NCBI GenBank assembly: GCA_012514185.1
Contig: JAAZAT010000070.1
Coordinates: forward strand, 1 to 40,433
From: Spirochaetales bacterium
GTDB lineage: Bacteria; Spirochaetota; Spirochaetia; Sphaerochaetales; Sphaerochaetaceae
Length of the DNA stretch: 40,433 nt
Reading direction: 5' to 3'
This document shows positions 5,499-11,762 of the stretch, piece after piece (within the stretch, counting starts at the first letter, position 1; each line of letters opens with the position of its first letter). The translations under genes were made by a program, and so were the position numbers. A model generated the notes under the pieces. The model did no database searches and was not told the DNA's origin. It saw only the letters and a list, made by a program, of their open reading frames with translations.

Positions 5499-5527
5499 TT
5501 GATTACTTAACATTTATATAGTATATC
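5499..5527 (+). promoter_or_regulatory. Promoter of the DUF72-imuB-dnaE operon, very close to the start codon
   Basis: TTGATT (5499-5504), a 17-base spacer, and TATATC (5522-5527). The DUF72 ATG begins 7 bases after the -10 box, where transcription would be expected to start. There is no Shine-Dalgarno sequence between them. Confidence 0.5.
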
Positions 5528-5533
5528 TGAAGT

Positions 5534-6361
5534 ATGAGTACGATTCTGATAGGAACTTCAGGCTACAGCTATACCGAATGGGTGGGCCCTGTCTACCCCA
5601 AGGGCACCAAGAGCGAGGAGTTTCTGTTCTCGTATGCACAGATGTTTCCCACCGTCGAGCTGAACTTCAGTTACTACCGCATGCCCGAGGCCGCCCAGCT
5701 TGCCTTGATGCATCAGAGTGCTCCTTCCCTCAGGTTTTCCATCAAGGCCCACCAAAGCCTCACCCATGTCATCGACGCCGGGCATTGGAGGGAGCAGGCG
5801 ACCATCTTCCGCCGTGCTTTGGAGCCGCTGCTCGCCAATGAGGTGCTCGATGCCGTGCTTTTGCAGTTTCCCTCTTCCTTCCACTATGAAGTAGACCAGC
5901 GAAAGTACCTGGACACACTGCTCAGGGTCCTCTCCCCCCTTCCCTTGGCGGTAGAGTTCCGCAACAGCCGGTGGTACAACAACCGCACCCTCGATTCGCT
6001 GAGAGCGCGGCAGGTCTCGTTTGTCTCTCTCGACCTGCCGCAAATCCAAGGAAATCCTCCGGTCATGGATGTCCCCACCTCATCACTTGCCTATCTGCGC
6101 CTGCACGGAAGGAACAAGGAGACGTGGTGGGGTTCCGATGCAGCAAGCAGGTATGACTATCTGTACAGCGACAGCGAGCTGAAGGTCCTGTTGGAGCGGG
6201 TGCTTTCGCTGATGGTGGGAGCAGAGAAAGTCCTGGTGTATTTCAACAACCATCGCAGAGGACAGGCGGCCTCCAATGCCAAACGGCTCAGGCAGCTGCT
6301 TGATGCAAGCGGAGGTGGGTCATGCATGAGCGAAAAGCAAGCATTGTCCATATCAACATAA
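5534..6361 (+). CDS. DUF72 (YecE-like) family protein
   Basis: About 275 residues. The N-terminal ILIGTSGYSYTEWVGPVYP, the FSYYRMP segment, the AVEFRNSRWYN stretch, SLDLPQI and the C-terminal VYFNNHRRGQAASNAKRL are the hallmarks of DUF72, a predicted TIM-barrel family with no established biochemical role. The conserved N-terminus begins at the third residue, which fixes the ATG. No Shine-Dalgarno site is present and a -10 box ends 7 bases earlier, so the mRNA may be leaderless. The 3' end overlaps the ImuB-like gene by 40 bases, so the protein is co-expressed with a DNA-damage polymerase module. That context suggests, but does not prove, a role in DNA repair or tolerance. Confidence 0.88.
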   Translation: MSTILIGTSGYSYTEWVGPVYPKGTKSEEFLFSYAQMFPTVELNFSYYRMPEAAQLALMHQSAPSLRFSIKAHQSLTHVIDAGHWREQATIFRRALEPLLANEVLDAVLLQFPSSFHYEVDQRKYLDTLLRVLSPLPLAVEFRNSRWYNNRTLDSLRARQVSFVSLDLPQIQGNPPVMDVPTSSLAYLRLHGRNKETWWGSDAASRYDYLYSDSELKVLLERVLSLMVGAEKVLVYFNNHRRGQAASNAKRLRQLLDASGGGSCMSEKQALSIST

Positions 6362-7500
6362 CAGATTTCGCTGCAGCGGTTGCAATTGCAAAACAACCCC
6401 GCCTTGCAGACCGTCCGTTCGCCATCGCCTTGGAGGGCTCCGCCCGGAATGTAATCATCACAACCTCCCGCAAGGCATGGCAGGAGGGAATCCGTGTTGG
6501 AATGCCGGTCACTACTGCACAGCGCATGCTCCCCGACCTGCAGGTACTGCCCCCCGACACCCAGTCGGCCGCACAGGCGGACAGTGCAATAGCTATGCTG
6601 GTGGCCTCCTACTCTCCCGACATCCAGTGCGACAAAGGCGGGCATGTCTACCTGGACATGAAGGGAACGGACAGGCTCTTCGGACCTGTTCTGGACAGCG
6701 CCCTGCGGATTCGCAAGGACATCCGCGAGCACCTGGGTCTTGAGGGGGCGGTGGCGGTTGCCTCGAACAAGCTGGTGGCAAAAATCGGGACCAGGGCCAT
6801 CAGGCCCTGTGGATTGGCCCATATTCGCGAGGGTGAGGAAGCTTCCTTTTTGGCAAGTCAGGATGTGAGCCTGCTCTCGGGGGTGGGACCTGCCATCGCC
6901 AGGCTCCTGAGGGTTGCCGGCATCACCCAAATCGGGCAGATAGCCGCCTTGGACGACAACCAAGTCCTCGCTTTTTTGGGCAGGCGCGGCCTTGCCCTGC
7001 GCGATGCCGCCAGGGGGCTTGACACCTCGCCGCTGCAAAAAGGGGTGATGGACAAGCAGTTCATCCACAGAAAGGTCAATTTTGCCGAACCGATTCTCAA
7101 CCTTGCGGAGCTCAAGGCCGGCATATTCGCCGCAGCCGAGGATGCAGGTCTGCAGATGAGAAGGGAGGGCATGAGCTGCCAGGCTGTCCAGATCAGCCTT
7201 TTTTGGAGCGACGGCAGGACCAGCGAGGCAACCAAGCGGACCAAGGGCCAGTGGATCTACGATGCTGAGATAGCGGACGCCCTCTTCCAAGCGGCTCTGC
7301 AGGCGATGGGACGCCGGGTCAGGCTCCTGTCCTTCGCCTTCAAGCTCTTTGACTTGGGTCCATCCCTCAGACAGACCGACCTGTTCATCCCCGAGATTCT
7401 GCAGAAGCAGGACTCATTGCAACAGGCAATCGACGAGGTACGCCAGAGGTTCGGGCCAGGCATCCTCACTCATGCAACGGCCCTGTGTCATGGAAACTAG
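6322..7500 (+). CDS. imuB: Catalytically dead Y-family polymerase homologue (ImuB-like)
   Basis: 392 residues with the Y-family layout: palm/fingers (1-170), helix-hairpin-helix region (LLSGVGPAIARLLRVAGITQIG, about 185-205) and little-finger domain (about 235-345). The metal-binding carboxylates of active Pol IV are missing. The HxDxD-type motif reads HINIT (Asn12 and Thr14), and the SIDEAYLD motif reads KGGHVYLD, with Gly107 and His108 in place of Asp and Glu. This is the signature of ImuB, the inactive adaptor of the ImuB/DnaE2 mutasome. A clamp-binding motif, QTDLF at 351-355, fits that role. GGAGGT lies 5 bases before the ATG, inside the DUF72 gene, and the stop overlaps the dnaE start. 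Overall it is about equally similar to DinB; the lost residues decide the call. Confidence 0.82.
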   Translation: MHERKASIVHINITDFAAAVAIAKQPRLADRPFAIALEGSARNVIITTSRKAWQEGIRVGMPVTTAQRMLPDLQVLPPDTQSAAQADSAIAMLVASYSPDIQCDKGGHVYLDMKGTDRLFGPVLDSALRIRKDIREHLGLEGAVAVASNKLVAKIGTRAIRPCGLAHIREGEEASFLASQDVSLLSGVGPAIARLLRVAGITQIGQIAALDDNQVLAFLGRRGLALRDAARGLDTSPLQKGVMDKQFIHRKVNFAEPILNLAELKAGIFAAAEDAGLQMRREGMSCQAVQISLFWSDGRTSEATKRTKGQWIYDAEIADALFQAALQAMGRRVRLLSFAFKLFDLGPSLRQTDLFIPEILQKQDSLQQAIDEVRQRFGPGILTHATALCHGN

Positions 7501-10402
7501 GCTTGCCCTGACCACCAGCTACTCCCTTTTGTGGGGGACGATGCAGCCGGGTCTTCTGTTCGACCAACTCAAGCAATGGAAGGTGAAAAAGGTCGCCATC
7601 ACCGACCGGGACAACCTGTATGGGTATCCTGCATGCAGGCAGGAGGCTCAGAGGTGCAACATTGAACTGATCTGTGCAGCCTGCCTGACCGAAGGAAACG
7701 ATGCAATCTTTGCCTTTGTGCAGGACCAAAAAGGATATGAGCAACTCTGCCTGCTGCTTACCAGACGGGCGCAAGACCGTACGTTTTCCTATCTTCCCTC
7801 CCTGCTTGCAGACAGCGAGGGGCTTGTGCTTGCCACAACCAGCCCTGCCCTGCTCACGACGCTTGCCACAAGCAAGGCCCGTCTCTATGGTGCAATCACC
7901 CCGACCTGCCTTGCCGCAGTGCAGACTGCGCGCAGGCTCGGCATCGCCCTGCTTGCCTGCGATGATGCACTGCTACAGGACAAGATGGACGAGGAAGTCC
8001 ATCGAATCCTTCGCTGCATGGCCCTGCACAAGACAGTCGGGACGCTGGAACACCACGATTGCTCGCCGCCCGGCAAGGTCCTGCTCGATCCCGACCAGTG
8101 GAATCGGGCATTCTCCTGCTGGCCCGATGCGGTGGACAATGCAAACCAGCTCAAGGCCTACGACCCCTTCCCCTCCTCGCTCATTTTCCCCGACTATCCG
8201 GTCGACGATGCGCCCAAGGAGTTGGAACAGCGGGTGCTTGCCGGTGCCGAGGTGCGGTACGGGGAAGTCAACGATGCCATCCTGGAACGCATCACCTATG
8301 AGCTGGGCATCATCAAGGACAAGGGCTTCGCCCCTTACTTTTTGGTCATGCACGACATCGTGCAGATGAGCAGCCGCACCTGCGGCCGTGGTTCGGGGGC
8401 GGCGTCAATCGTCTCCTACTGCCTGTTCATCACCAATGTCGATCCCATCGCCCATCAGCTCTACTTTGAACGCTTTCTCTCCCCTTCCCGGCTCGATCCC
8501 CCCGATATCGATGTCGACTTTGCCTGGGACGAGCGCGACGGAGTCTTTGCCGCGGTGTTTGAACGGTTCGGCCGAGAACATTGTGCACGGGTTGCCAATC
8601 ACAACTGCTTCAGGCTGCGCGGGGCGGTCAGGGAGACCGGCCGCTGCTACGGCCTCAGTGATACCCAGATCAGCGAAGCCGAAAAAAAGCTGTTCATCAG
8701 CGGCCTGAATGAGCTCGACGACCCCTTGTGGCAGACCATCTGCCGGGTTGCGACCAAGCTTGAAGGACTGCCCAAGGAGATTTCCATGCACTGTGGAGGC
8801 TTGGTCATCACCCCAAGGCCGGTCTCCTGCTATGCTCCGCTGGGACTGAGCAGCGACGGGTATCCCTTGCTTGCCTGGGAGAAGGAGGGAACCGAGATGG
8901 CCTCTTTTGTGAAGATCGACCTCTTGGGAAACCGCTCCCTTGCCGTCATCCGCGACACCTTGGCAAATCTGGTGGAAGAGGACATCCATATAGATCAGCG
9001 GCTGTGGCATCCCGCTGAGGATGCACCTACCATCGCAGCCCTGGCAAAGGGTGATTCCATGGGAGTCTTCTACATTGAGTCTCCTGCAATGCGGCAGCTG
9101 CAAAAAAAGACCGGACGAGGCGATTTCGAACACATCGTCATCCACTCCTCGATCATCCGACCCGCGGCGAATGCGTTCATCAGCGAATATGTCGAGCGGC
9201 TTCGGGGCAAGAAGTGGGAACCGCTGCATCCCAGGCTTGCCTACATCCTCGATGAGACCTACGGGATTCTCTGTTATCAGGAGGATGTATCCAAGACCGC
9301 CGTCGCCCTGGCCGGCTTTTGCGAGTCCGATGCAGACAAGCTGCGCAAGGTCATCGCAAAGAAGGCCGGGGGGGAGAAACTCAAGGCCTACCGCCGGCAA
9401 TTCTTCGACGGATGCAGTGCCAATGGCGTGAGCGAAGAGACGACACAGAAAATCTGGGAGATGATGCTCAGTTTCGACGGGTACTCCTTTTGCAAGCCAC
9501 ACTCCGCCTCATATGCGATGGTCTCCTTCCAAAGCGCATACCTCAGGGTCCATCATCCCGCACATTTCATGGCGGCCGTCCTGTCCAACCAAGGCGGCTA
9601 CTACCGCAGCCAGGCATACATCAGCGAGGCTCAGAGGATGGGCATCCGCATTGAAGGTCCGGACCTCAATCTCAGCAGGATCGCCTACCATGCCCGAGGC
9701 AATACCTTGTTCATCGGCCTGATGGCCATTGCCAACCTGACTATGCAGGCTAAGATGCAGATAGTCGGGGAGCGAAAGAGGCGAGGAGCATTTTCTGACC
9801 TCAAGGATGCTTCCTCCCGCCTGAACCTCTGCCGGGAAGACTGGGTTTCGCTGGTGGAAAGTGGATGCTGCGACAGCCTTGCCCTGCAATACCGCCGCAG
9901 CGAGCAGCTGAGGATCCTGCTTACCAATTCAGCAAGAAAGATCGAATCCGATCAACTTGAGCTTTTTGCCAGGCCAAACCAGGTTGCACGGCACGAGCGC
10001 GCCTTGGTGCAGGTCAGGCGCACCGAGGACGAGCTGCACCGTGAATTCTCCGCCTTGGGCTTTTTGCGTGCTTCCCATCCCCTGCTCTTGTGGTCGCAGT
10101 ACCTTAGGGGCCTTGCCCGGGTGAAAGCCTCCGAGCTCGGCCGGTACAAGGGACGCTATGTGAATCTCATAGGCTATCAGATCACCCAGAAACAAGTCAT
10201 GACCAAAGGAGGGCAGAGCATGAGCTTTGTCTCCTTCGAGGACGAGACAGCCCTGTATGAGACTGTCCTGTTTCCCGACCTGTATCAACGCTATTATCCC
10301 TTGCTCTCAAGCTTGTGGCCGTTGGTGGTGTTCGGCTTGGTGCAGGACGATCAGGGGGCCTTGGTGGTGGAAGTCCAGCATCTCAAGAAAGTTGGTTCTT
10401 GA
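7490..10402 (+). CDS. dnaE2: DnaE-type DNA polymerase III alpha subunit, error-prone DnaE2-like
   Basis: About 970 residues, the length of DnaE2 rather than the longer replicative DnaE1. An N-terminal PHP domain is present but degenerate: the usual HxH before SxYSLL reads ALT, and the TDH motif reads TDR. The polymerase core is intact, with Asp341 and Asp343 in PPDIDVDF and Asp477 in VKIDLLGN, matching E. coli 401, 403 and 555. A helix-hairpin-helix region and a C-terminal OB-fold follow (RYVNLIGYQITQKQ to the end). The ATG at 7490 overlaps the ImuB stop (ATGGAAACTAG), so translation is coupled. The longer in-frame extension upstream lies within imuB and is not conserved. It probably synthesises across lesions, recruited to the clamp by the ImuB-like protein. 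No ImuA, LexA or RecA gene is in the window. Confidence 0.88.
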   Translation: METRLALTTSYSLLWGTMQPGLLFDQLKQWKVKKVAITDRDNLYGYPACRQEAQRCNIELICAACLTEGNDAIFAFVQDQKGYEQLCLLLTRRAQDRTFSYLPSLLADSEGLVLATTSPALLTTLATSKARLYGAITPTCLAAVQTARRLGIALLACDDALLQDKMDEEVHRILRCMALHKTVGTLEHHDCSPPGKVLLDPDQWNRAFSCWPDAVDNANQLKAYDPFPSSLIFPDYPVDDAPKELEQRVLAGAEVRYGEVNDAILERITYELGIIKDKGFAPYFLVMHDIVQMSSRTCGRGSGAASIVSYCLFITNVDPIAHQLYFERFLSPSRLDPPDIDVDFAWDERDGVFAAVFERFGREHCARVANHNCFRLRGAVRETGRCYGLSDTQISEAEKKLFISGLNELDDPLWQTICRVATKLEGLPKEISMHCGGLVITPRPVSCYAPLGLSSDGYPLLAWEKEGTEMASFVKIDLLGNRSLAVIRDTLANLVEEDIHIDQRLWHPAEDAPTIAALAKGDSMGVFYIESPAMRQLQKKTGRGDFEHIVIHSSIIRPAANAFISEYVERLRGKKWEPLHPRLAYILDETYGILCYQEDVSKTAVALAGFCESDADKLRKVIAKKAGGEKLKAYRRQFFDGCSANGVSEETTQKIWEMMLSFDGYSFCKPHSASYAMVSFQSAYLRVHHPAHFMAAVLSNQGGYYRSQAYISEAQRMGIRIEGPDLNLSRIAYHARGNTLFIGLMAIANLTMQAKMQIVGERKRRGAFSDLKDASSRLNLCREDWVSLVESGCCDSLALQYRRSEQLRILLTNSARKIESDQLELFARPNQVARHERALVQVRRTEDELHREFSALGFLRASHPLLLWSQYLRGLARVKASELGRYKGRYVNLIGYQITQKQVMTKGGQSMSFVSFEDETALYETVLFPDLYQRYYPLLSSLWPLVVFGLVQDDQGALVVEVQHLKKVGS

Positions 10403-11762
10403 GCGCAATTTCCTTCTCTATGCGGGCGATATAGCCGCTCATATCGAATTTGCGTTCAAGGCCCTTGTCGTTCATGTAGCGGATATTGCCGAAAATCGGT
10501 CTCTCGGCCCAAGGTCGGTCATGCGCGCCGAAACACCAGGCAACCCCTGCATAGCCGTTGGGATCGCGGCCGTCCATCTGATAGGTGTTGTTCAAGGCCA
10601 AGGCACGGTGGAAGGCCTCCTTGGGTGTGGGACTCCACTCGAGGATCTTCTTTCCCCAATACATGCGCAGATAGTTGTGCATGGTCCCCAGTTCAGTCAG
10701 CTCCCTTTGTGCGGTATTCCAGTAGACATCATGGGTTTGTGCCTGCTCCAACTCTGCAAAGGTGTAGAGAACAGGCCTTCTGTCCTGTTCGTGGTAGCCA
10801 AGGCTCTTTTTTGCCCAAGCAGGCAACCCTTCATAGGCGTCGTACAAGGGGTTGAACCAAACATAATTGTAGGCAAGCTCCCGCCTGACGACAAGCTCCT
10901 CCAAAAAGACCGGTACATCGGGCACATGAACATCCTTGACTGCATGGTAGATGTCGATTGCGCTGATCTGGCCGAAATGCAGGTAGGGACTCAAGCCGGA
11001 ACTGAAGGTGTGTGAGGGATCGTTGCGGCCATCTGCATAGCTGCCCAATCGTGACTCGATGAACAAGGAGAGCTTGCGCTGTCCTTCCTGCCCGCCTCCT
11101 TTGAGGTGTGGGCAAGACTCTCCCTTGTTTCCCAGGGAGAGAGAATCCAAAACCCGGGATGGATCGGCTGGATCGATGGGGACAAATAGGGGTTCCAAGG
11201 AAAGGCCGTTCATCAGGGGCGCAGAGAACTCAATACGTTGGGCAAAGTAGGCGGTCATGCCCTCGATTTTGCGCCTGAGCGTTGCAGCCGAATACTCCTG
11301 CTTATCTGACACAGCTTCAACAGGTACGATGACATTGGTCTCTACCTCATACACGGGACAGAGACTGAAGGCTGCGACCTGCTTGCGCCAAAGCCGTTCG
11401 GTTCGGGTATAGCCGCGATCGGTGACCAAAAGGCACATCGACGGCATGAGCTTTGCAAGACCTGAGAGGATTCCATCGTCGTGGACCCAAAAAGGAATGC
11501 CCATCGCTTGCAGCTCTTGCTGCACTTCTTTCAGTCCTTCAAGCATGAATCGGTAGTGGCGGCCCTGCGCTGAGTCGAAGCTTCGCTCGAGGCCGAAGTA
11601 GACAACCAAGGGTTTTTTCAGGTTGTCTGCCTGCTCGATGGCAAAACAGAGCGCCTCATTCTGTTTGCAACGTTGGGCTGCCTGCATCCAATACACTACG
11701 CAGGAGCCCTCTTTCTTGACCGGATCGGCAACCAGTTTTGTGATTCTCTGTGCATCTACCAT
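10383..11762 (-). CDS. phrB: Class II CPD photolyase
   Basis: 459 residues, the size of class II deoxyribodipyrimidine photolyases, which split cyclobutane pyrimidine dimers using light and reduced FAD. Class II features are visible: VVYWMQAAQRCKQNEAL at the N-terminus, ELVVRRELAYNYVWFNP, and the C-terminal block DGRDPNGYAGVAWCFG with AHDRPWAERPIFGNIRYM. Class I enzymes lack this block. The gene meets the DnaE gene tail to tail, overlapping it by 20 bases. It lies 35 bases after the DUF3795 gene and may be read with it. A possible -10 box (TATGCT, 11769-11774) ends 7 bases before the ATG without a good -35, so an independent short-leader transcript is possible. Together with the polymerase operon it forms a DNA-damage cluster. 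Confidence 0.93.
   Translation of the reverse strand: MVDAQRITKLVADPVKKEGSCVVYWMQAAQRCKQNEALCFAIEQADNLKKPLVVYFGLERSFDSAQGRHYRFMLEGLKEVQQELQAMGIPFWVHDDGILSGLAKLMPSMCLLVTDRGYTRTERLWRKQVAAFSLCPVYEVETNVIVPVEAVSDKQEYSAATLRRKIEGMTAYFAQRIEFSAPLMNGLSLEPLFVPIDPADPSRVLDSLSLGNKGESCPHLKGGGQEGQRKLSLFIESRLGSYADGRNDPSHTFSSGLSPYLHFGQISAIDIYHAVKDVHVPDVPVFLEELVVRRELAYNYVWFNPLYDAYEGLPAWAKKSLGYHEQDRRPVLYTFAELEQAQTHDVYWNTAQRELTELGTMHNYLRMYWGKKILEWSPTPKEAFHRALALNNTYQMDGRDPNGYAGVAWCFGAHDRPWAERPIFGNIRYMNDKGLERKFDMSGYIARIEKEIALKNQLS

Follow-up and report, generated by a model that had tools for sequence, protein, structure and literature searches.

A DUF72 gene joined to an inactive Y-family polymerase homologue and DnaE2: a probable SOS-inducible mutasome in a Sphaerochaeta-like spirochaete

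How a DnaE2 polymerase may work without ImuA and ImuB, and which function the DUF72 proteins perform, are two questions that can be tested together at one locus of a spirochaete genome. The window analysed here is the whole of contig JAAZAT010000070.1 (assembly GCA_012514185.1; 40,433 nucleotides), where three overlapping plus strand genes at 5534-10402 encode a DUF72 protein, an inactive homologue of Y-family polymerases (iPolY) and a C-family polymerase of the DnaE type. In our judgement, this operon probably encodes an SOS-inducible mutasome for translesion synthesis that belongs to the DnaE2B-iPolY-RecA type and has DUF72 as an additional, fixed member. The host is a Sphaerochaeta-like member of the Sphaerochaetaceae, since the named relatives of the middle protein (about 50-84% identity) include Sphaerochaeta species. 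Its genome (2.76 Mb, 86%-complete) encodes one further protein of each polymerase type, namely an intact Y-family DinB on contig 71 and the replicative DnaE1 on contig 26.

The iPolY and DnaE2 pair

Pfam domains were recognized in all three proteins, namely DUF72 (E-value in Table 1), IMS and IMS_C in the middle one (2.4e-28 and 5.5e-07), and DNA_pol3_alpha, finger, HHH and PHP domains in the third, whose reading frame probably starts at ATG 7490, the listed TTG at 7349 being merely the first start in frame. Matches to PDB structures and a joint alignment with the DinB of Escherichia coli and the DinB of the same genome placed N12, T14, G107 and H108 of iPolY at D8, D10, D103 and E104 of the E. 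coli enzyme. All three metal-binding acids (D8, D103 and E104) are thus replaced in iPolY, and the genome's own DinB is intact. Among 24 orthologues of the family, G107 does not vary, and conservation of N12 and H108 reaches at least 90%; the N..GH pattern is stable also in Spirochaetota and is kept in nearly all relatives from Desulfobacterota and Myxococcota, and the Nitrospira relatives carry GS at the second catalytic site. Neither the family orthologues nor the more distant iPolY had intact catalytic acids at the aligned positions. Moreover, Y-family polymerases were the top fold matches of the AlphaFold model (mean predicted local distance difference test score, pLDDT, 83), and DNA polymerase IV models were the best NCBIfam matches, all under their cut-offs. 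Judged by its sequence, iPolY is a catalytically inactive homologue of Y-family polymerases. The retained fold could speak for a protein that still polymerizes DNA through other active-site residues, but the loss of all three metal-binding acids, the conservation of their substitutes in three phyla and the presence of a catalytic polymerase encoded next door make this extremely improbable.

The catalytic aspartates of the third protein (D339, D341 and D477, equivalent to D401, D403 and D555 in E. coli) are retained in 32 of the 32 DnaE2 sequences aligned, and DnaE2 is probably active and the sole catalytic polymerase of the set. Its PHP region, inspected by eye, appears degenerate, the His pattern seen in DnaE1 being absent. 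In a tree of 45 DnaE proteins, built with a quick method and holding two DnaE2A sequences only (taken from plasmid-borne ImuA-ImuB-DnaE2 cassettes of Agrobacterium and Burkholderia), DnaE1, DnaE2A and the clade of the window's DnaE2 were separate, with Shimodaira-Hasegawa-like approximate likelihood ratio test (SH-aLRT) values of 98-100. The window's DnaE2 is therefore separate both from DnaE2A, the clade found with ImuA-ImuB, and from the DnaE1 of its own genome; it groups on a long branch with a Persicobacter DnaE2 encoded beside a PolY, in a tree that contains no named Streptomyces or Geobacter DnaE2B. The putative second clamp motif QLELF is a weak candidate for a clamp motif of DnaE2, because it was found in only few relatives.

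The C-terminal part of iPolY carries the clamp-binding motif QTDLF, of which D353, L354 and F355 are nearly invariant in the 24 orthologues, followed by a motif resembling the N-terminus of RecA. In ungapped scoring against 10 RecA N-termini, including that of the genome's own RecA (QKREALEAARIQIDKQFGKGSLM), the segment QKQDSLQQAIDEVRQRFGPGILT scored 39.5, whereas 20,000 shuffled versions of the tail gave 31.1 at best and the background maximum was 17.9. Since the protein stops nine residues after this motif, it has no ImuB-C domain; this domain (PF20114) was found in 0 of 13 genomes and was detected in the Caulobacter positive control.

A first-pass annotation of this DNA, made from its letters, had described an inactive Y-family polymerase next to a DnaE2 that keeps its catalytic residues, in a mutasome-like operon of a spirochaete-like genome, and had named the middle gene ImuB. 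Most of that description is borne out, including Asn12/Thr14 and Gly107/His108 at the acid positions of Pol IV, the QTDLF motif at 351-355, the three polymerase Asp residues of the next gene, and the observation that neither lexA nor imuA adjoins the operon within the window, DUF72 taking the first place. The name ImuB is not supported, and we reject a canonical ImuB on account of the ImuB-C domain, which does not follow the RecA-like motif, and of the clade of the DnaE2. That the operon is nonetheless a canonical ImuB-DnaE2 mutasome from which ImuA was merely lost might be argued from the adjacency of an inactive Y-family protein to DnaE2 and from a catalytic loss like that of the ImuB on the Agrobacterium and Burkholderia plasmids. 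The absence of ImuB-C from the protein and from the 13 genomes, the position of DnaE2 outside DnaE2A and the sub-threshold resemblance of iPolY to Pol IV models largely refute this explanation, which we consider very unlikely. Queries with ImuA gave no match near the distant loci, and a RecA-family search of the genome, with a RecA model that may miss ImuA, recovered only RecA itself and, weakly, a RadA-like protein (about 455 aa).

Linkage of DUF72 to the pair across phyla

The order DUF72-iPolY-dnaE2 was found in 30 of 31 Sphaerochaetaceae loci, one of the 30 being cut before dnaE2. DUF72 and iPolY overlap by 4 to 40 nt in all family loci but one, which has a 6-nt gap, and iPolY and dnaE2 overlap by 8 or 11 nt. 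This recurrence with overlapping genes argues that the order is not due to chance. At the exceptional locus (L052, 6183-7742 in reverse-strand coordinates, genome G112), a transposase-like gene occupies the place expected for the 5' part of iPolY, and DUF72 lies on another contig. Considering whole genomes, iPolY occurs in 33 of the 139 genomes of the family. All of these 33 also have an operon-type DUF72, which elsewhere was represented just by a match of 44% and by a fragment (Fisher p 6e-30, uncorrected for kinship). Besides, conservation among the three proteins is highest for DUF72 (mean identity 63% vs 47% and 57%), and the DUF72 proteins of the operon are separate from the second DUF72 that these genomes encode.

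Outside the family, a phylum-wide sample of Spirochaetota had DUF72 just upstream in 19 of the 19 inactive-type iPolY loci inspected, and three hits with intact DDDE residues (DinB type) had no DUF72 upstream. Of 33 loci on named Thermodesulfobacteriota contigs, 31 of which include 900 bp or more of upstream sequence, 30 have DUF72 and 28 have lexA upstream, and the four loci labelled Myxococcota all have DUF72 upstream (lexA in three). The order in most Desulfobacterota is lexA-DUF72-iPolY-dnaE2, and small open reading frames found between iPolY and dnaE2 in some of them are unrelated and have no ImuB-C match. The same four-gene cassette is carried near a relaxase gene by the mobilizable plasmid Do28_1 of Desulfosarcina ovata (L185), and this kind of damage-induced mutagenesis may therefore be transferable among bacteria. 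DUF72 was not upstream of iPolY-dnaE2 in two Gemmatimonadota loci.

DUF72 is thus a conserved third component of the operon in at least three phyla. The proposal of the first-pass annotation that the locus is a variant mutasome stands as far as the variant is concerned, and its view of DUF72 as a substitute first gene does not. No paper linking DUF72 with DnaE2 was found among the open-access main texts searched; the one text in which both terms came up (PMC5720831) seems to contain a longer DUF number that begins with the same digits.

Some further observations were made on the distribution of these genes. Genomes G091, G092, G101, G110 and G113 have a second DUF72 gene, a paralogue, at a distance of some 12-24 kb from the operon, and two strong iPolY matches were present in each of G350 and G434, in which the operon may be duplicated. 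A contig from a metagenome-assembled genome labelled Burkholderiaceae (JANJVG010000209.1, L104) carries a Sphaerochaeta-type operon at 84-90% identity and is probably misassigned.

Candidate LexA control

The 41-nt gap before DUF72 contains two promoter-like hexamers, TTGATT and TATATC, separated by 17 nt, with a 20-nt candidate LexA operator across them (Table 1). In other genera this operator takes the form TACTATAC-N4-GTATAGTA, including nearly perfect palindromes such as ACTATACATATGTATAGT. Its core YAACNNNNRTATAGTA is rare genome-wide and was present in all seven congeneric genomes at the promoters of both the recA and the lexA operon. Of the 19 matches that the T form (TAACNNNNRTATAGTA) had in these genomes, seven fall at the operon described here, another seven at rpe-dtd-recA and one at the lexA operon, the remaining four being at other places; in the six genomes left over, it is the C form that occurs at the lexA operon. 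The operator being common to the recA and lexA operons in the seven genomes, SOS control of the DUF72 operon through LexA is likely, and a candidate LexA box is gained for the Sphaerochaeta group. A lexA gene is present in the source genome, and lexA heads the operon in most Desulfobacterota, as described above.

The shorter core was the informative query; a mismatch-tolerant search with the full palindrome returned mostly chance matches and did no better than a reversed control. A further palindrome, ACTTTACAATTGTAAAGT, upstream of an ispG-like gene (G000:C119 23504; L216; near copy in G091) is likely the site of another regulator and was not counted. The consensus promoter scanner left the -35-like hexamer TTGATT unscored. 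Because in this genus some 6 nt separate the end of the -10-like hexamer from the DUF72 ATG, the mRNA of the operon may be leaderless or have a very short leader.

Table 1. Coordinates of the operon genes, promoter elements and protein motifs in the window, with the basis of each assignment
Feature	Position	Strand	Length, basis and remarks
DUF72 protein	5534..6361	+	275 aa; TIM barrel; operon gene 1; PF01904 (E 2.9e-57)
iPolY, inactive Y-family polymerase homologue	6322..7500	+	392 aa; 40-nt overlap with DUF72; PF00817/PF11799, fold by model
DnaE2 (DnaE2B-like), error-prone C-family polymerase (predicted)	7490..10402	+	970 aa; 11-nt overlap with iPolY; Pfam, tree, catalytic Asp
-35-like hexamer TTGATT	5499..5504	+	Sequence; TTGA conserved here upstream of DUF72 across Sphaerochaetaceae
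-10-like hexamer TATATC	5522..5527	+	17-nt spacer; 6 nt before ATG; position conserved in genus; putative promoter function
Candidate LexA operator TACTTAACATTTATATAGTA, degenerate palindrome	5504..5523	.	Conserved upstream of the operon at nearly all family loci
Clamp-binding motif QTDLF, iPolY residues 351-355	7372..7386	+	xDLF nearly invariant in 24 orthologues
RecA-N-terminus-like motif QKQDSLQQAIDEVRQRFGPGILT, iPolY residues 361-383	7402..7470	+	Ungapped score 39.5
Putative second clamp motif QLELF, DnaE2 residues 822-826	9953..9967	+	Sequence; few relatives only

A possible role for DUF72 and the proposed mutasome

The nearest structure to the operon protein is the DUF72 protein Tm1631 (PDB 1vpq; E 9e-51, 38% identity, Z 32), and both the PF01904 domain and the TIM-barrel fold are present in its model (pLDDT 88). 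After the DUF72 entries, the fold matches include the UV-damage endonucleases 3tc3 (Z 14.5) and 4gle (with DNA containing a 6-4 photoproduct, Z 14.0) and endonuclease IV (13.6), together with sugar epimerases (Z 13-14), and because the nearest folds are mixed in this way the fold alone does not show work on DNA. It was predicted that Tm1631 binds damaged DNA via N44, Y47, Y48, K72, H79, Q114, R145 and R191, among others (Konc et al.; PMC3828134). In the operon DUF72, variation is absent or almost absent at the equivalent residues (N44, Y47, Y48, K71, H78, Q111, R143 and R189), and about 15 invariant polar residues, most of them common to Tm1631, suggest an active or ligand site. Moreover, DUF72 is reported to be enriched beside polB2 mutasomes in archaea and bacteria (PMC11791011).

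In the literature searched, no activity has been reported for DUF72, and what points to one here is association and homology. A role of DUF72 at DNA lesions is our best guess, held with moderate confidence. It is possible, and we put it forward tentatively, that DUF72 is an integral subunit that recognizes or incises lesions within a LexA-controlled DUF72-iPolY-DnaE2B-RecA mutasome, with template processing and error-prone synthesis encoded as one unit, which would provide a first function for the widespread DUF72/YecE family. Alternatively, DUF72 may regulate the mutasome and not process DNA, in keeping with its place as the first gene, its overlap with the next, the lack of any proven chemistry and the solved DUF72 structures without metal, that of Tm1631 among them (PMC3828134). 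The invariant polar residues shared with Tm1631, however, suggest a catalytic or ligand-binding protein, and we regard a regulator as improbable.

Several observations weigh against an SOS-inducible mutasome of which DUF72 is a fixed part. At recA and lexA, the candidate LexA box has a degenerate left half. No such operator was found near either gene in three further genera (those of G124, G021 and G121), and other genera yielded just one more case; near recA in G090 there is a site with three mismatches. The match to the RecA N-terminus is strong in the window and its close relatives and weak in several distant family members, which score at background with the motif columns still aligned. 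In Nitrospira (12 loci), iPolY-dnaE2 has no DUF72 match upstream; genomes that carry the operon also encode DUF72 proteins outside it; and sugar epimerases are as near to DUF72 in fold as UV-damage endonuclease and endonuclease IV. These last points, with the two Gemmatimonadota and two Desulfobacterota loci in which the pair has no adjacent DUF72, would fit a mutasome of iPolY and DnaE2 only, DUF72 being a passenger, an SOS-regulated enzyme of unrelated (e.g., sugar or nucleotide) metabolism. We consider this rather unlikely in view of the co-occurrence in 33 of 33 genomes of one family, the adjacency in three phyla despite diverged sequence, the gene overlap in nearly all family loci, the high conservation of DUF72 and its enrichment near polB2 mutasomes too (PMC11791011).

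In the SOS-inducible mutasome that we favour, LexA would block the promoter at 5504-5523 until DNA damage occurs, after which the three proteins would be produced jointly. As a non-catalytic adaptor, iPolY would be tethered to the sliding clamp by its xDLF motif and, standing in for ImuA, docked on RecA through its C-terminal RecA-like helix; with its polymerase body it would hold DnaE2 at the stalled end, where DnaE2 would carry out synthesis. The TIM barrel of DUF72 would most likely bind or process the damaged template, so that bypass or coupled repair could proceed. Damage induction is supported by the operator and the lexA linkage, the adaptor role by the motifs and the activity of DnaE2 by its residues; complex formation, LexA binding, error-prone synthesis and an activity of DUF72 are what we infer for this operon.

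The DnaE2B-iPolY-RecA mutasome (scDinB2 and gbDinB2 types) was published as a prediction (PMC12926913) and foreshadowed in PMC6511836. The operon matches it by composition, having an inactive Y-family protein that adjoins DnaE2 and bears a RecA-like motif, no ImuB-C domain and a DnaE2 outside DnaE2A. The difference lies in DUF72, here the fixed first component and often accompanied by lexA; the main text of PMC12926913 makes no mention of DUF72. The combination of dead PolY, DnaE2B and RecA was already known as a prediction, whereas DUF72 as its fixed third component was not found in the literature searched. A dead Y-family partner, an active DnaE2 and likely SOS control are shared with the ImuA-ImuB-DnaE2 mutasome, from which the operon differs by the absence of ImuB-C and of an adjacent ImuA and by the clade of its DnaE2. 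PolB2 mutasome neighbourhoods (PMC11791011) likewise have DUF72 beside a translesion synthesis operon, but they use another polymerase family with iRadA and PPB2 as partners, and DUF72 is there a neighbour enriched to some degree. Tm1631 belongs to the same DUF72 family and matches in its predicted DNA-site residues, whereas UV-damage endonuclease (3tc3, 4gle) is a mere fold neighbour at about 10% identity. Overall, the gene order, preserved across phyla, links a large protein family with solved structures to translesion synthesis.

Downstream of the operon, a DNA photolyase gene (10383-11762, minus strand) converges on dnaE2. This neighbourhood is retained in many congeneric genomes, which indicates that genes related to UV damage cluster at the locus.

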